Below, in pieces: positions 26,902-33,359 of a stretch of DNA of 64,000 bases (the stretch's first letter is position 1; each line of letters starts with the position of its first letter). The stretch is from the NCBI RefSeq assembly GCF_025643255.1, contig NZ_CP087112.1, positions 2,232,001-2,296,000 on the forward strand, in the 5' to 3' direction. This DNA comes from Halomonas sp. 7T. Its GTDB lineage: Bacteria; Pseudomonadota; Gammaproteobacteria; Pseudomonadales; Halomonadaceae. The position numbers and the translations under genes were made by a program. Below the pieces are notes generated by a model that was not told the origin of the DNA, made no database searches, and saw only the letters and a program-made list of their open reading frames with translations.

Positions 26902-27906
26902 TTAGCGGTCAACGGTATCGGAAGAATCGCCATTCCAAGGGTTCTCAACCCCAACGGTGTCAGCAGCGAAAGCCTTGCGTTCACCCAGCGGCCTAGGCGC
27001 TCCTACCGTGGTGTCGTTGTAGGTTTGGCGCTCCATCTCGCAATTAATCTCTGCACCAAATAGCACTATAAATGCGGAAAGCCAGAACCATAGCATTAAC
27101 GCCACAACGGCCCCGATAGAGCCGTACAACTCGCTAAAGGTAGAAAAGTAACGCACGTAAAGAGATAAACCACCGGAGCCTAATAACCACATGACAGTGG
27201 CAAACAGCGTACCGTAGCTTAACCAACGCCATTGGGCAGAGCGCCGGTAAGGCGCGTAACGATAAAGTAAGGCAATAAGTACGCTCATCAGCAACAATAA
27301 CGCCGGCCAACGCAACCACTTCAAAACAGTGTCTACCGGTGGCTCAATCATTAGCGTATCAACAACGATGGGCACAATAGCGATAAAGCCCAATGACACT
27401 AGCGTCATGGTGATCAAACCCAACGTCAGTGACAGTAGTACCAAACCACGTAACAGCAGTGGACGCTTTTCATTTTCCCCATACACGACGTTTAAGCCAA
27501 CCACCAGTACGGCAACACTTTTGGAAGCAACAAACAGCGCAATTAAGAGCACGGCTAGCGCTGTCATCATATTGCCAGCTTCCGTGCTTTCCACGACGTC
27601 TTGAGCCTGCTGATCAATCAAGTTCGCCGCATCCGGTGGCATAAAGCGGCTAATTTCGTACAACTGGCGACCCGCTTCCACAGGGTCAAACAGCAGCCCC
27701 CATAAAGCAATAACCGCTGCAATGGTGGGAAACAGCGCCAACAAGGCATAAAAAGCAACCCCTGCCGCGTACATGGTAATACGATCGCGCCGCGCTGCAC
27801 GTAAAACCCGCCACGCTATATCGTACCAACCCATACGCGGGATATCGTCAGGCACTGTCGCTTTTCGGCCACGCCAGTGAGTGTTCACTCTCTCTTGATC
27901 GCTCAT
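26902..27906 (-). CDS. YihY/BrkB-family inner-membrane protein
   Basis: A membrane protein of about 334 residues with six hydrophobic segments. It has the family landmarks ITMYAAGVAFYALLALFPTIA near the start, FDPVEAGRQL, and LYGSIGAVVALMLWFWLSAFIVLFGAEIN near the end (given in part), the latter holding the conserved GAExN. BrkB was once called ribonuclease BN, wrongly; family function is unsettled, though some members are discussed as transporters. The ATG at 27904-27906 overlaps the stop of the proton-translocating subunit upstream (ATGA), so it is the fifth cistron of that operon; the frame also extends to 27987 inside that gene, but without a ribosome site. The linkage to an Mrp-like operon is the interesting feature. 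Confidence 0.9.
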   Translation of the reverse strand: MSDQERVNTHWRGRKATVPDDIPRMGWYDIAWRVLRAARRDRITMYAAGVAFYALLALFPTIAAVIALWGLLFDPVEAGRQLYEISRFMPPDAANLIDQQAQDVVESTEAGNMMTALAVLLIALFVASKSVAVLVVGLNVVYGENEKRPLLLRGLVLLSLTLGLITMTLVSLGFIAIVPIVVDTLMIEPPVDTVLKWLRWPALLLLMSVLIALLYRYAPYRRSAQWRWLSYGTLFATVMWLLGSGGLSLYVRYFSTFSELYGSIGAVVALMLWFWLSAFIVLFGAEINCEMERQTYNDTTVGAPRPLGERKAFAADTVGVENPWNGDSSDTVDR

Positions 27907-29675
27907 CGCAGCCCCTCCCACAGTAGCAAAAGCGCCAGCACCACAGCGAACGCCATCATCAAACCGCTGCCATGGTGCCGCATCCACGCCTCGCTAGATA
28001 AAAGCCGCGTTAACCGCCCCATGGCGTATCGCTCAAAGACCAACGCCGCATTCACGCTTGCTCCTTTTACCTTTTGGCATTTGTACGCCATGGCGCTGGC
28101 CACCTCAACAGCGTTTATTGCCACGACGCTATAAAGCCACCATAAATCACCCGCAGGCGGCCTTTTAATGCGCACGTGTCGCAACCCGTAGAAGCCCCCC
28201 ACCACCAGCATTACGCCTGCGGGAAATGGCCATACGACGCCCCACCACTCACCTATCGGCGGCGGCACAACGCTCCCCTCAGGCAGCGGAAGCCAGAGCG
28301 GAGTAATTAGCGCCGCCAGGATTGCAGTAAGCCAGGCACCTGACTGAAAATTATCACTGCCCCCGGAGTGGCGCTGCTGCCACTGGCGCCACACACATAC
28401 ACTCACCAGTGCCGCTGTGCCAATAGCCGCCCACGTGAGCAACATGATTAAGGAGGTATGCTCCATCTTATAAAGCGCATCCTTTACCCCCCACTTGCTC
28501 ACCATGCCTGCGGCTAGCGCCCCGGTTAGCGACACCCCTGGCAAGGCAATCAACGCAAACAGCAGTGGCTTTGGCAAACGGGGCATGTGCTCGCTTATGC
28601 TGGTACCCATAAATAACGCGCCTTTCGCTAACGCATGGTGTGCCGCAAACAGCACCAAGCCAGGTAGCAGCAGCGGCCACACGCCGGGGGCGGTCAGCCC
28701 CATCGCAACCATCGCCGTTAACATGCCCATCTGGCTAATACTGGAGTAGGCTAATACAGCCTTGGGTTGACGCTGCCAGATCCCATAAAGCGCTGCACCA
28801 AACGCCGCCGCCAAGCCTGCGACCAACATCCCATTACCTAACTGCGTTAACGCTGGCGAGAGTCCTTCTAAACCTAGTGGCAATACGTTAAGCCAGCCTA
28901 AGAGGCCCGCTTTTATCATCGCCCCACTCAACACCGCGCTAGCGGGGGCGGGCGCCACTGGGTGAGCCAGCGGCAGCCAAACGTGGAGGCCCATTATCCC
29001 TGCTTTTACGCCGAACCCAAGCCACAGCAACAGCGCCATGAGGGCCCCTTGTTCGGCACTGGCGATCCCTTCACGTACGCCTTCAAGCGTCACCGTCTCA
29101 GCAGTGCCTGCCGCCCAGAGCAAACCGCCAAGGATTAGCCCTTCGCCAATGACGGCTAAGATTAAATACGCTTTTGCGCCTAACCGCGCTTCCGGGCTAC
29201 CGCTGTGCACCACCAGGGCGTAGGCGGCAAACGTCATTAACGCGAAGCCTAGGTAGAAGCTAGCAATATCCTGGGCGACAATCAGCAGCACGTTGCCCAG
29301 CAATGTCAGCGGCCAAAACAGGGCTAGGCGCAGCAAACGGCGCTCAGCGGCTTGGTCTCCCGCCTGGGCCTTTGCCTGCTCGGCTGAGAAATACCCCCGC
29401 CCATGCACGGCGGCCAAGCTCCATAGCAGGATAGTGAACGCAAGCCACGGTCGGCTGAGAGCGTTCAACTCCCAGTAACCGCCCAGCATCCAGGCCTCAA
29501 CCATCCATTGCGCCTCACCCGCGTAGGCCAGCAGCAACGCAGGCCAAGAAGCTGATAACCATATCAGTGAAAAGTAACGTCGCGTTGCCACCGGCGTGCG
29601 GTAGGCCTGCCACACCACGTTACCCGCAACACAAAGAGGCCACAGCAAGGCAGCCAGTAAAAGCAGCGTCATCAT
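27903..29675 (-). CDS. MrpA/NuoL/HyfB-like proton-translocating subunit (third of three)
   Basis: A 590-residue polytopic membrane protein of the proton-conducting transporter superfamily (NuoL/M/N, MrpA/D, HyfB). The discontinuous-helix lysine is in GFGVKAGIMGLHVWLPLAHP (about K224) and the central lysine in GAMIKAGLLGW (K255). The segment normally carrying the transmembrane-helix-5 glutamate reads YLGFALMTFAAYALVVH, with Ala145 where the paralogues have Glu. After the 14-helix core it has a C-terminal extension of about 90 residues ending in a hydrophobic helix. Overlaps both neighbours by four bases. Likely part of a cation/proton antiporter-like complex; exact ion unknown. Confidence 0.88.
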   Translation of the reverse strand: MMTLLLLAALLWPLCVAGNVVWQAYRTPVATRRYFSLIWLSASWPALLLAYAGEAQWMVEAWMLGGYWELNALSRPWLAFTILLWSLAAVHGRGYFSAEQAKAQAGDQAAERRLLRLALFWPLTLLGNVLLIVAQDIASFYLGFALMTFAAYALVVHSGSPEARLGAKAYLILAVIGEGLILGGLLWAAGTAETVTLEGVREGIASAEQGALMALLLWLGFGVKAGIMGLHVWLPLAHPVAPAPASAVLSGAMIKAGLLGWLNVLPLGLEGLSPALTQLGNGMLVAGLAAAFGAALYGIWQRQPKAVLAYSSISQMGMLTAMVAMGLTAPGVWPLLLPGLVLFAAHHALAKGALFMGTSISEHMPRLPKPLLFALIALPGVSLTGALAAGMVSKWGVKDALYKMEHTSLIMLLTWAAIGTAALVSVCVWRQWQQRHSGGSDNFQSGAWLTAILAALITPLWLPLPEGSVVPPPIGEWWGVVWPFPAGVMLVVGGFYGLRHVRIKRPPAGDLWWLYSVVAINAVEVASAMAYKCQKVKGASVNAALVFERYAMGRLTRLLSSEAWMRHHGSGLMMAFAVVLALLLLWEGLR

Positions 29676-31177
29676 GGCAGGTACTCCCCGACCGCAACAC
29701 GGGTCGCCCAGTCCAGCGGGCTAAACGGCAGCCCTGCCAATAACCCTGCCCCAATACTGACTATCGCAGTAAATACCGCGGGCCATAACAGCCAACCGTG
29801 GGTTTCCAAACGCCCCAGGCGCTGCTCCTTGGGCCACTCCCCGTCACCATGGGCCGGCCCCTCGCGGAACCACAAGCGGTGCAAAATCGGCAGGAAATAC
29901 ATCGCATTCAAGGTACTGCTCACTACTAGCACTGCCACCACCCAGTTCATCTGTGCTTGTATCGCGCCTACTCCCAGATACCACTTGGTGATAAATCCTG
30001 CCACCGGGGGCAGCCCAATCATCCCCAATGCTCCCACCGTAAACGCGATACTGGTGAGCGGCATACGCTTGCCAGCGCCGTCCATTTCATCTATCCGGTG
30101 TATCCCCAACTCTTCAGCATAATTACCCGCGCAGAAGAACAGCGTAACTTTCATCAGCCCTTGATGAAGGAGGTGGGCAAGCGCACCAATGGTGCCAAAC
30201 GGGCCGAACAGGCTGACCCCCAACACCACGTAGGAGACTTGGCTAATGGTTGAAAACGCCAAACGGGGCTTAAGCTCATGCTGCGCAATCGCCAGTAGCG
30301 AGCCATAAATAATGGTGATCGACGCGGCTACTGCCAACACCGTGGTCACGCCTAGTTCGACACTCAGCTCGATCCCGTAAAGGTCATAGATAATCCGCAT
30401 GATGCCAAATGCACCGGCCTTAACGACCGCCACCGCATGCAACAGCGCGCTCACCGGCGCAGGCGCTACCATTGCCCTGGGCAGCCAGCCATGAAGGGGC
30501 ACCATCGCCGCCTTTACGGCTAGCCCACCCACCAGCAGCGCAAATATCAGCGTTAGCTGCCCACGGTGGTCGTTAAGATAGGGTGTGAGGCCGCGCTCTG
30601 AGGCAAACGAATGGTCGCCTGTTAAGCTGTAAAGCATTACGACACCCAACAGCAGCACTACCCCACCGGTCAGCGTATAGCGCAAATAAACCCGCCCCGC
30701 CGCTAACGCTTTAGCGGTACCCGCATGTACCACCAACGGGTACGTCGAAAGCGTCAGCATTTCGTAGAAAATCAAAAAGGTAAACAGGTTGCCAGCCAGC
30801 GCGATGCCCAAAGTACTGGCTACACACAGGCTGAAGAAACCAAAAAAACGCTTGAGATTCGCCCCACTTTCTAAGTAACCAATGGCGTAAATGGTGGTAC
30901 ATAACCACAAAAGCGACGACAGGCCAGCAAACATAACGCCCAAGGCATCGGCGCGCAGCACAAAATCAATACCGCCGACAATCTGAAAACTAAAGGTGTC
31001 CTGGTAGCCCTGGGAAACGCGTCCAACCATTAACGCCACGAGAGCAAGTTTACTAACGGCAGCCACTAGATTGACGCTGATGCGCAGCCGCCGCGCCTCC
31101 TCGGGCAAAAGAAAGATCACCACCGCTGCAATAATTGAGGTCGCCAACGTTGTCAGGGGAAGCCACGCCGCATTCAT
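29672..31177 (-). CDS. MrpD/NuoN-like proton-translocating subunit (second of three)
   Basis: A 501-residue polytopic protein with the best-conserved antiporter core of the operon: TFLIFYEMLTLSTYPLVVHA with the helix-5 glutamate (E139), LAVKAAMVPLHGWLPRAM with K222, AVAVVKAGAFGIMRI with K253, and LLHQGLMKVTLFFCAGN later. This pattern is that of MrpD/MnhD. It is joined by ATGA overlaps to the 496- and 590-residue paralogues. Predicted to be an inner-membrane subunit moving protons in exchange for a cation, or driven by one; which ion is not readable from the sequence. Confidence 0.9.
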   Translation of the reverse strand: MNAAWLPLTTLATSIIAAVVIFLLPEEARRLRISVNLVAAVSKLALVALMVGRVSQGYQDTFSFQIVGGIDFVLRADALGVMFAGLSSLLWLCTTIYAIGYLESGANLKRFFGFFSLCVASTLGIALAGNLFTFLIFYEMLTLSTYPLVVHAGTAKALAAGRVYLRYTLTGGVVLLLGVVMLYSLTGDHSFASERGLTPYLNDHRGQLTLIFALLVGGLAVKAAMVPLHGWLPRAMVAPAPVSALLHAVAVVKAGAFGIMRIIYDLYGIELSVELGVTTVLAVAASITIIYGSLLAIAQHELKPRLAFSTISQVSYVVLGVSLFGPFGTIGALAHLLHQGLMKVTLFFCAGNYAEELGIHRIDEMDGAGKRMPLTSIAFTVGALGMIGLPPVAGFITKWYLGVGAIQAQMNWVVAVLVVSSTLNAMYFLPILHRLWFREGPAHGDGEWPKEQRLGRLETHGWLLWPAVFTAIVSIGAGLLAGLPFSPLDWATRVAVGEYLP

Positions 31178-32664
31178 AGGCCACCTCCTTGTAACAGCGA
31201 TAGCGGTAGATGGGCCAGCAAGCCCAACGCAAAGGCTGCCAACGCCAGCGCTAGCGCGACGATCTCCATACTTGGCGCCAGCGGCTGGTAGCGGTGCCTT
31301 GGCGCGGTTTCATCAAAAGAGTAGCGGAAAACACGAAATATGTAGGCCGCAGATAACAGGGTACCCACCAAGAGTGCGGCAACAGCAACCCAATGCTGAG
31401 TCATTATCATCGCCTGTAGCAGCAGCCATTTAGCTGTGAAACCAGCACTGGGCGGCAAACCCATCAGCGTCACTGATGCAATGCCGAATACCAATAACGA
31501 CAGCGGCAAACGACGGCTAGTACCCGCCAGCCCCTTCAGCGAGCTTTCGCCCGTGGCGAGAACCAAATTACCTGCCGCCATAAACATCGCGGCTTTTGCC
31601 AGCGCGTGGCCCATCAGATGTAACCAAAACCCATCCCACGCCAACGACCTGGGCAGCGGTGAAATGTCCGGCCCTATCAGTAAAGGGAACGCCACCATTA
31701 GATAACCCAACTGCGCCACCGTTGAAGAGGCGACCAGGGTTTTAAGCGAGTCCGCCCGCCATGCCACAATGCCTCCCCACACAATGGCCAGCATGCCTAA
31801 CCAAGCGATAAAGCGCGGGGCAAATACAGAATCGGGAAGCAGAATGCTCCACAGCATCACCAACATGAATAGCGAGGCTTTCACCACCAATGCCGCATGC
31901 ACTGCGCTGACAGGCGTCCACGCGTTTTCATGCACCGGCGTTAGCCAACCATGCAAGGGAAACAGCGCTGCCTTTAGCGCAAGGCCCGCGCCGATTAGCG
32001 CAGCGGCTATCCAAGCAACCGGGCCTGGCTCTACCACTTCCGCCAGTACCCGTAGATCAAGCTCTCCCCAATAACCCAGTATTAGGGCAACTCCCAGCAG
32101 ATACGCCAATGAGCCAACCAGTGCCAGCAACAGATAGCGCATGCCCGCCAGTAGCGCTGCCGGTTTACCCGATAAAAGCAGCATGCCCACCGCAGCTAGC
32201 CCCAAGAGCTCTAGAGCGGCGTAAAGCGTTAACAGATCCGCCGCCAACCATATGAGTGAAAGCGCACTGATTAACACGCCCATCAATGGCCACAGCCAGC
32301 GCGCCCGCGGGCCGGGGTTAGTTAAACGCAAGTGGCCCGGGGTATATAGCGCCGCCGCCGCCCCCACCCACTGGGTCACCAGCAGCATTAAAACGCTAAC
32401 ACCGCCCAGCCGGAGAGACAGCGTGACGCCCGCTACCTGCCACTGCCAACGCAACAGCCCTGCCTGCTGGTAATCCATCGTTAACAGAGCACCCGCCAAT
32501 AGTACCGGCACGCAGGCAAGCCCAATAGGTAACGCGCGACGGGGGGAAACTAGTGCGCCCAGCAGGCCAAAAAGAATGGGCAATACCAGCGCGGCGGCTA
32601 GCGCCCAGTGCGTTAGAAGAAGAGGCTCGAATGTCGCTTCTGTCAGGCCAAATCGCCATGTCAT
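31174..32664 (-). CDS. MrpD/NuoM-like proton-translocating subunit (first of three)
   Basis: A 496-residue membrane protein with the superfamily residues in place: LLTLYAALELLGLAAVGML with Glu152, LALKAALFPLHGWLTPVHE with Lys231, and AALVVKASLFMLVML with Lys262, then SSTVAQLGYLMVAFPLL and HLMGHALAKAAMFMAAGN. It differs clearly from the 501-residue paralogue, so it is not a recent duplicate. The ATG overlaps the stop of the DUF4040/MnhC-like gene; its stop overlaps the next start. Part of the same predicted membrane complex. Confidence 0.9.
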   Translation of the reverse strand: MTWRFGLTEATFEPLLLTHWALAAALVLPILFGLLGALVSPRRALPIGLACVPVLLAGALLTMDYQQAGLLRWQWQVAGVTLSLRLGGVSVLMLLVTQWVGAAAALYTPGHLRLTNPGPRARWLWPLMGVLISALSLIWLAADLLTLYAALELLGLAAVGMLLLSGKPAALLAGMRYLLLALVGSLAYLLGVALILGYWGELDLRVLAEVVEPGPVAWIAAALIGAGLALKAALFPLHGWLTPVHENAWTPVSAVHAALVVKASLFMLVMLWSILLPDSVFAPRFIAWLGMLAIVWGGIVAWRADSLKTLVASSTVAQLGYLMVAFPLLIGPDISPLPRSLAWDGFWLHLMGHALAKAAMFMAAGNLVLATGESSLKGLAGTSRRLPLSLLVFGIASVTLMGLPPSAGFTAKWLLLQAMIMTQHWVAVAALLVGTLLSAAYIFRVFRYSFDETAPRHRYQPLAPSMEIVALALALAAFALGLLAHLPLSLLQGGGL

Positions 32665-33359
32665 TGGGCTTTCTCCTTGGCGCTACCGTCGTGACCCAAA
32701 GCACTCTCGCCTCCAAGCAGAAGAAGATGGCGAATCAACAGCGCACCTAGCAATGAGCCTAGCCAGGCAATCAACAAGCCAACGCTCACTAATGCCTGTG
32801 CACCATCCACGGTACCGGCCATACCGGCGAGCAGCAGAAACACCCCGGAGCCAAGAATATTAAAGGCGAGCAGGCGGCGCAGCAGATGGCGATGCAGGGC
32901 AAACGCACCCATCGCCGTTGCCGCGATAAATATCGCGGCTAGCACAAGGGGATGCTCGGTTGGGGAGTAGGCCATTACCGGCATTACATAGCGGATTGCG
33001 CCGCCCATCATTAAGCACCATGCCAGCGCTAACAGCGCCCGCGCTACGCCATGATGCCAAATGCCCTGTAAATTGTCGTAATAGGAGACACGCCTACCGT
33101 AGCCGGAAGAGTCAACGTCAGAAGGAAATACCCTTAACGCATAAAAAAAGCTGGCGCCTGTTAACACCGCCCCCAATAGCAGCTCGGCTAACGCCAACCA
33201 AGGCGCACCCAACCACCACCATGCCAGGGTCATGAGCAGCGCAAAGAGGATAAACAGGCTGCTAGCCCGTAACAGATGGCGATCAAACAGGCAGGCCAGC
33301 GCAACTACACATAAGCAGAGCGCCAACCCTCCTTCTAATAACGTAGAGGAAGCTATCAT
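32661..33359 (-). CDS. DUF4040 (MbhD)-MnhC/NuoK-like fusion protein
   Basis: A 232-residue membrane protein that seems to join two small Mrp/Mbh subunits. Residues about 10-75 match DUF4040/MbhD, the C-terminal piece of MrpA: LACLFDRHLLRASSLFILFA then LGAPWLALAELLLGAVLTGA with Glu59. A middle hydrophobic segment at 105-128 could correspond to MbhE. Residues about 135-212 look like MnhC/NuoK: LHRHLLRRLLAFNILGSGVF and DGAQALVSVGLLIAWLGSLL. The NuoK-type helix glutamate position is Asn167 here. First cistron of the five-gene operon. Two-domain reading is by eye; separate families could not be checked. Confidence 0.75.
   Translation of the reverse strand: MIASSTLLEGGLALCLCVVALACLFDRHLLRASSLFILFALLMTLAWWWLGAPWLALAELLLGAVLTGASFFYALRVFPSDVDSSGYGRRVSYYDNLQGIWHHGVARALLALAWCLMMGGAIRYVMPVMAYSPTEHPLVLAAIFIAATAMGAFALHRHLLRRLLAFNILGSGVFLLLAGMAGTVDGAQALVSVGLLIAWLGSLLGALLIRHLLLLGGESALGHDGSAKEKAQ

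Follow-up and report, generated by a model that had tools for sequence, protein, structure and literature searches.

A run of five genes in a 64-kb stretch of the Halomonas sp. 7T genome (contig NZ_CP087112.1; 64,000 nucleotides, hereafter the window) raises the question of what remains of an Mrp-type ion-translocating complex when several of its small subunits are absent, and where such a complex would come from. The genes lie on the minus strand in the order G1-D1-D2-D3-BrkB, G1 being a fused small subunit, D1, D2 and D3 antiporter-like subunits and BrkB a membrane protein of the BrkB/YihY family, and all four junctions are 4-bp ATGA overlaps. Judged from its sequence, the cluster descends by reduction from a Group 3-type Mrp of nine genes; E, F, G and B have been lost and MbhD has been joined to MnhC.

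A sequence-only reading of the window had described five minus-strand genes linked by four ATGA overlaps, with the sizes of the three large subunits, and had seen in them a reduced membrane complex of Mrp/Mbh type whose three antiporter cores have diverged. The open reading frames (ORFs) and the sequence bear out the former (Table 1), and Pfam matches to PF00361 in D1, D2 and D3 support the latter. It had also reported that MrpE, MrpF and MrpG are absent at the locus, in agreement with profiles for MnhE, MnhF, MnhG and MnhB built for this analysis, which match nothing in the 64-kb window, and that a redox or peripheral arm is lacking; none was found among the Pfam families of the neighbours or, as Complex1_49kDa or NADHdh, in the genome.

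Ancestry of the reduced cluster

Relatives were collected by scanning a species-genome collection with D2, using patterns derived from the window protein, a procedure that favours near kin, and the best 80 of 89 relatives were kept as loci. They come from Halomonadaceae, Alcanivorax, Desulfobacterota, Planctomycetes, Bdellovibrionales, Thermomicrobiaceae and Actinobacteria. Sorted by profiles, 40 of the 80 carry the fused G1-D1-D2-D3-BrkB run and 5 carry G1-D1-D2-D3 without BrkB (one of them cut by a contig end), 24 are full clusters with E, F, G and C, and 2 are located behind a canonical Mrp operon; contig ends truncate a further 9 on the upstream side, and L036 stops 0.8 kb past D2. None of the 45 loci with a fused G1 has MrpE, MrpF or MrpG nearby, and MnhB has no match among ORFs of at least 60 aa in the reduced loci examined. 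D3 is missing from one full locus, L083, where the contig ends, and reaches no more than 19 bits in another, L069. The small subunits of one full cluster are assigned by Pfam to MNHE, MrpF, MnhG, MbhD, MbhE+MnhB and Oxidored_q2.

Of 390 genomes searched across the order with D3 (E <= 1e-45), 31 have relatives, and 24 of the 31 belong to families other than that of the window. Of these 24 loci, 22 have all nine families, one is of the Alcanivorax type described below and one is cut by a contig end. The nine-gene parent order is MnhE-F-G-MbhD-MnhB-MnhC-D1-D2-D3. Of 275 genomes of the family, 120 have a D3 relative, whether full or reduced in type, and its neighbourhood was studied in 31 of these 120. 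Some loci fetched from family and order genomes (G loci) duplicate D2-scan loci (L128/L050, L139/L038, L149/L048 and L186/L079).

Full clusters show variants of their own. Two actinobacterial metagenome-assembled genomes (MAGs; L085:7470-14641 and L086:7401-14576) carry four antiporter-like genes behind E, F, G, MbhD, MnhB and MnhC, namely one D1-like, two D2-like and one D3-like gene, the last encoding 885-898 aa. MnhE lies downstream of D3, not at the start, in L073, L077, L078, L084, L067 and L070 (Thermomicrobiaceae-type and Bdellovibrionales).

In a tree of the joined D1-D2-D3 sequences, the reduced forms make up one clade nested among full clusters, with a support of 1.0 (FastTree, 27 rows) and 100 (IQ-TREE, 14 rows against 26); at its base stand two Desulfobacterales MAGs, one with a fused G1 and the other cut by a contig end. 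Because the reduced clade is nested in this way, the loss of E, F, G and B and the joining of MbhD to MnhC are derived. The minimal complex proposed by the sequence-only reading is a derived reduction instead of a primitive system, E-G standing in the same operon in 24 of the 80 D2-scan loci and in 22 of the 24 order loci outside the family. Adjacent MrpE-G genes in relatives, which that reading had named as evidence that would tell against it, are largely what was found, and in two Alcanivorax loci MbhD, MnhC, D1, D2 and D3 begin 39-42 bp after a complete Mrp operon, the whole forming one 12-gene run in Alcanivorax limicola (L047:1047-12281). The best tree separates the Alcanivorax form from the reduced forms, and an approximately unbiased (AU) test allows a single origin (p 0.357).

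A minimal form, D1-D2-D3, is present in 7 fetched genomes of the Halomonadaceae genera g3, g7, g13 and g22, in which no G1 was seen; L177, from the genome that also gave L132, and L183, which runs into a contig end, had been dropped from this count. The D1 of the minimal form measures 410-419 aa, about 80 N-terminal residues fewer. A zinc-ribbon ORF of 70-110 aa occurs in 9 of the 11 fetched cluster loci of genus g8 and in 6 of the 7 minimal genomes, with no match in L127, L124 and L174; it lies just before G1 in the two g8 loci checked and abuts D1 in the three minimal loci examined closely. This gene and the common flanks (carboxylesterase, CitT and PhoH) point to the minimal form being the same locus after a deletion.

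Antiporter-like subunits and the fused small subunit

D1, D2 and D3 match Proton_antipo_M (PF00361) at 3.7e-45, 6.5e-61 and 3.3e-26, respectively, and by sequence all three have 6cfw_H as their top match among solved structures. D1 places with MrpD in the tree and retains the glutamate of transmembrane helix (TM) 5 and the lysines of TM7, TM8 and TM12. D2, which reaches 462 bits against NCBIfam PRK07234, under the cut-off of 718, is the most conserved of G1, D1, D2 and D3 and retains all key residues. D3 has a NuoL/MrpA-like fold, with a predicted long C-terminal helix (512-567) and a final helix (569-589). Across the loci (L085, L086, own-genome loci and ORFs shorter than 440 aa being excluded from the counts), the TM7 lysine is present in 75/75 D1, 77/77 D2 and 74/74 D3 proteins, the TM8 lysine in 72/75, 77/77 and 74/74, and the TM12 lysine in 75/75, 77/77 and 73/74 (one gap). 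The TM5 glutamate is kept in 75/75 D1 and 77/77 D2 proteins and in 0/74 D3 proteins.

The gene junctions are conserved as well. Of 46 BrkB-bearing loci (window included), 45 retain the D1-D2 ATGA overlap and 45 the D2-D3 one; among 63 full or other loci the numbers are 54 and 57. With a few loci sharing a genome, these counts put the overlaps beyond chance.

Antiporter-like subunits also occur in other fusions. Some Halomonadaceae have a second related operon (L135:4443-9690, L136 and L137) that runs E-F-G-MbhD/MnhB-MnhC and then encodes one protein of 942-975 aa, which looks like a D1-D3 fusion and whose C half is without the TM5 glutamate in 2/2 tested; in several genera (L130, L131, L160, L165 and L185), D2 and D3 are fused into a protein of about 1,070-1,110 aa.

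G1 matches Pfam MbhD (PF13244) at 5e-10. Its NuoK/MnhC-like half has no Pfam match in the window copy at E 0.001, and some G1 relatives carry PF00420 together with PF13244. A profile of the G1 family matches the MbhD-type chains 6u8y_D (E 9.8e-5) and 6cfw_D (2e-4) and, weakly, the MbhG chain 6cfw_G (0.076). The AlphaFold2 (AF2) model of G1, at a mean pLDDT of 80.9, shows seven long helices arranged 3+1+3 (2-25, 29-49, 53-74, 101-125, 137-155, 159-181 and 185-216), and structure comparison (VIA) returns both relatives and unrelated helical proteins at similar Z, a match that is supportive only. G1 is read as MbhD (three TM), one further TM and an MnhC/NuoK-like part (three TM), much as the sequence-only reading had done in calling the first gene DUF4040-MnhC/NuoK-like; the MbhD half is identified by Pfam, and the C half comes from relatives, a weak profile match and structure. 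E59 and N167 of G1, corresponding to E69 and N34 of the membrane-bound hydrogenase (MBH), are kept in 27/27 G1 proteins. With two of the four proposed MBH cation-coordinating residues kept, some cation coupling could persist in G1-bearing forms; minimal forms could hardly couple to a cation via a G1-type site.

The reduced cluster is, by its substitution pattern, still under selection. The ratio of nonsynonymous to synonymous changes (dN/dS) against six Vreelandella-type loci, where computable and with several synonymous distances saturated, is 0.038-0.111 for D1, 0.027-0.049 for D2, 0.060-0.157 for D3 and 0.117-0.142 for G1. In six pairs of other reduced or minimal genomes, D1-D3 give 0.085-0.555, a weaker constraint that is still below 1.

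Place among known systems

The window genome (3.63 Mb, 99.99% complete) has eight PF00361 matches: three in the cluster, four in two complete, divergent canonical Mrp operons and one in a DabB-type gene that adjoins a DabA gene (Table 1). Neither Complex1_49kDa (PF00346) nor the NADHdh/NuoH family (PF00146) has a match in the whole genome. As to a hydrogenase large subunit, PF00346 is absent and none was found among the tested neighbours, no NiFe-hydrogenase profile search having been made. Because two Mrp operons lie elsewhere and the complex I 49-kDa and NuoH subunits are lacking, the cluster is an extra system, neither the canonical Mrp of the cell nor a part of complex I.

Group 3 Mrp is defined, in passages of PMC8415708 and PMC5703873, by the absence of mrpA and the presence of one or more mrpD-like genes; the excerpts describing Microbacterium sp. 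TS-1 (mrpFGBCDDAE) and the stand-alone Pyrococcus furiosus form (mrpEFGBB'CD) likewise give mrpD-like genes and no canonical mrpA. The cluster, too, has no MrpA-type N+C fusion, and its D1, D2 and D3 are separate. Going by their genes, the full relatives fit the Group 3 definition and use the same small-subunit families as Group 3 Mrp in these excerpts, and the reduced cluster shares descent with them. It differs from Group 3 Mrp in being without E, F, G and B, in its MbhD-MnhC fusion and in its three cores, the P. furiosus form having one D. Measured against the features of Mrp antiporters (CPA3), the cluster has MrpA/MrpD-type subunits, an MrpC-like subunit and an MrpA-C/MbhD domain, and it lacks MrpE, MrpF, MrpG and an MrpB/MnhB domain. 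Since it lacks E/F/G and B, it should be called an Mrp antiporter only with a qualifier, even though it may function in the way that part of one does.

Candidatus Nitrospira alkalitolerans has, according to a portion of PMC7784846, a Group 3 Mrp with two extra NuoM/NuoL-like genes. From the description, these additional antiporter-like genes lie downstream of the Group 3 Mrp, as in the full relatives, and the cluster has all of mrpA-G per its authors and is not reduced. Judged by that description, it is perhaps a published instance of the full form. For the reduced and minimal forms, no account was found in the literature searched, and excerpts of the Halomonas elongata literature name Mrp1 and Mrp2 with no mention of the cluster in them.

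Other complexes share parts of this architecture. The Mrp module of MBH has the homologues of G1 (MbhD and, weakly, MbhG) and the chain closest to D1-D3; in contrast to MBH, the cluster has no MbhA, MbhB, MbhC or MbhF homologue, no hydrogenase arm was seen, and there are three cores, not one. The membrane arm of complex I (NuoJ-K-N-M-L) has the same subunit types, and D3 is NuoL-like including its C-terminal helices; unlike an organism with complex I, the genome is without NuoH or the 49-kDa subunit, and D3 is without the TM5 glutamate. DabB2 of DAB2 (DabB2-DabA2) is, in the published excerpt, NuoL-like without the TM5 glutamate, as D3 is, and a proposed open proton conduit. The cluster has three modules and no DabA beside it, its neighbours belonging to other Pfam families, whereas the DabA of the genome adjoins a separate DabB-type gene. 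The Ca2+/H+ Mrp of Thermomicrobium roseum, named in PMC5703873, is also a multi-subunit Mrp. The Thermomicrobiaceae relatives had suggested it as a type for the cluster, and it was rejected: the T. roseum plasmid cluster, taken to be trd_A0369-0375 from the range in an excerpt of PMC2615216 (the old tags are absent in the record), is canonical A-G, with two PF00361 matches on the plasmid record.

Proposed proton conduction, alternatives and the BrkB gene

In Mrp, MrpE/G and MrpF have been proposed as the entry for Na+, which would then reach MrpC and the glutamate of MrpA-C (PMC7419157), and by one structural model the lost E, F, G and B would make up the Na+ entry/translocation module. We consider it rather probable that the cluster is a reduced descendant that conducts protons through its three antiporter-like modules, the Na+ entry module having been lost. 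The retained membrane arm would resemble the J-K-N-M-L part of complex I, and protons would pass through D1, D2 and D3. D3 would clamp the far end by its lateral helix and, being without the TM5 ion-pair glutamate, might by default stand open to protons. The same has been proposed for DabB2, in which an Ile at this position is read as favouring the open state (PMC13144422); such a bias could be gated by neighbours or by a partner. Proton import could serve the control of cytoplasmic pH in alkaline, salty conditions. Coupling might be either to a cation via the residual G1 site or via a partner, with the complex acting alone or docked to a canonical Mrp, and BrkB would have joined the gene run later. 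According to passages of PMC11496545, isolated antiporter modules conduct H+ and a Glu-to-Gln change in the ion pair raises the rate. Deletion of MbhABC, the E/F/G homologues, reduced Na+-dependent activity to about 60%, the residue being attributed to other complexes, and hydrogenase activity was kept (in the portion of PMC8415708 cited here).

More tentatively, Halomonadaceae may hold a deletion series that leads from a nine-subunit Mrp through a J-K-N-M-L-like arm with neither Na+ module nor engine to three bare cores, the reduced forms being a gated proton arm, free or docked, with a constitutively open D3. There is debate on how antiporter-like subunits couple with one another, with Na+ and with redox chemistry, and a selected natural complex without E, F, G and B, in some genera also without the J/K-like linker, shows which parts are dispensable. 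It offers a small system for testing H+ conduction by D1, D2 and D3, its cation dependence and the coupling between subunits. In D3, nature supplies a NuoL-like protein that has no ion-pair glutamate in TM5, a substitution elsewhere examined in engineered proteins. In a salt-loving host, this cut-down Mrp relative is a natural test of how an ion-pump family works.

Several points weigh against reduction followed by proton conduction. The neighbours of the reduced clade in the tree are full clusters of a Marinospirillum-type genus, and the sister node is weak (0.475); L051, a row of the reduced clade, is cut by a contig end, so that its small subunits are not visible there. G1 is the fastest evolving subunit and has been lost in some genera. 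In G1, G and F replace the MBH cation residues D37 and H41, a change that the MnhC of full relatives also shows and that is therefore no marker of reduction. The Na+ route in Mrp is itself disputed, with three putative pathways, one direct from the cytoplasm (PMC9568556), so that cation coupling could outlast the loss of E/F/G. An H+ channel that conducts freely would do harm, which calls for a gate or partner, and none was found. Finally, the dN/dS values of the cluster genes lie above those of the neighbouring PhoH in most pairs.

This faster evolution would suit a decaying remnant without function, as would the few genomes in which D3 is split or interrupted by a stop in frame (L029, L035; G022, G111, G202, G236 and G266); the broken copies may mean that the system is decaying in some species. 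As an account of the cluster, however, a remnant is very improbable, most of the listed family D3 matches having no internal stop, with dN/dS below 1, near-invariant core residues and conserved overlaps. We give hardly any credence to a redox complex that would have the cluster as its membrane arm and draw its peripheral arm from genes at another place: the composition is J-K-N-M-L-like, but a nearly complete genome holds no Complex1_49kDa or NADHdh match, and all its PF00361 matches are assigned to the two Mrp operons, the cluster and the DabB-type gene beside DabA. Doubtful, though to be reckoned with, is an add-on arm, in which G1-D1-D2-D3 would dock on a canonical Mrp made elsewhere, enlarge that complex and move more H+ per Na+. 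The Alcanivorax gene order, the single origin left by the AU test and the two complete Mrp operons of the window genome speak for it, as does MnhE in 274 of 275 family genomes; yet so near-universal a gene, set against D3 in 120 of 275, makes co-occurrence uninformative, the reduced cluster is not beside Mrp genes in the fetched Halomonadaceae loci, and there is no interface evidence. Just as doubtful is a self-sufficient reduced antiporter, in which D1-D3 alone would exchange Na+ or K+ for H+ in the manner of the single-subunit Nt-Nha. Nt-Nha alone and the Methanosarcina Mrp with MrpA alone are active according to a section of Ito et al. 2017 (PMC5703873), and both the core lysines of D1-D3 and the two invariant G1 residues are kept; the same section holds that Mrp generally requires all subunits, and here E/F/G and B are absent and the 7 minimal genomes have not even G1.

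The sequence-only reading had made BrkB an accessory or gating component, and had asked whether the five-gene order is conserved. BrkB (PF03631 at 1.1e-58) adjoins D3 in 40 of the 80 D2-scan loci and overlaps it by 4 bp in 14 of 46 loci (window included), the overlap not being kept in the other 32, so the five-gene order is not generally conserved; among fetched family loci with a reduced cluster, it follows D3 only in genus g1. Even there, L079/L186 is without it, having either lost the gene or diverged before its arrival, and the node joining the eight BrkB-bearing rows minus L079 has a support of 0.242. A broad BrkB profile finds no gene near 24/24 full D2-scan loci, 7/7 minimal genomes, 17/17 other reduced loci (one of which, L036, ends 0.8 kb after D2) and 25 of 28 full G loci. 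The remaining three, 3/52 full loci overall, belong to genus g43 and have a same-strand BrkB gene at three different positions (Table 1); these proteins match Pfam BrkB at 1.9e-35, 7e-35 and 4e-35 and are distant from the window BrkB (26-30 bits). Two further BrkB genes lie elsewhere in the window genome. Distantly related members of the BrkB family have thus ended up next to clusters of this kind on two or more occasions, at different positions. The pattern is compatible with an accessory role but speaks against a fixed core subunit. A complex of five subunits with BrkB among them is improbable for all the linkage in g1 and g43, and BrkB is probably not a core subunit but a loosely linked, genus-level addition; of the original proposal, conservation with the cluster fails and the second association in g43 speaks for it. 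A literature search for BrkB/YihY with an antiporter gave nothing useful. The mechanical ORF of the window BrkB extends back to a GTG at 27987, giving 361 aa.

The genes flanking the cluster (24.3-38.3 kb tested) belong by Pfam to a LysR regulator, PhoH, a carboxylesterase, a CitT-like transporter and a GMC oxidoreductase. The carboxylesterase and the CitT-like transporter lie upstream on the same strand, and PhoH lies downstream on the opposite strand.

Table 1. Coordinates of the cluster genes in the window and of related features in other loci.
Feature	Position or locus	Strand	Length	Remarks
G1	32661-33359	-	232 aa	MbhD (NuoJ-like) + MnhC/NuoK-like, read as a fusion
D1	31174-32664	-	496 aa	antiporter-like, groups with MrpD
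D2	29672-31177	-	501 aa	antiporter-like
D3	27903-29675	-	590 aa	NuoL/MrpA-like
BrkB/YihY family membrane protein	26902-27906	-	334 aa	from the ATG in the ATGA overlap
Two complete, divergent canonical Mrp operons	L089:1646-13799 = G000:C1:632645-644798			window genome
DabB-type gene beside DabA gene	L090:4685-8835		602 aa (DabB-type), 797 aa (DabA)	DabA: PF10070 5.5e-212
Zinc-ribbon ORF	L122, L125, L126, L132, L133			upstream of G1/D1
BrkB-family gene near full cluster, g43	L153:15443-16354	cluster strand		38 bp downstream
BrkB-family gene near full cluster, g43	L152:9033-10025	cluster strand		84 bp upstream
BrkB-family gene near full cluster, g43	L150:13361-14218	cluster strand		4.2 kb upstream

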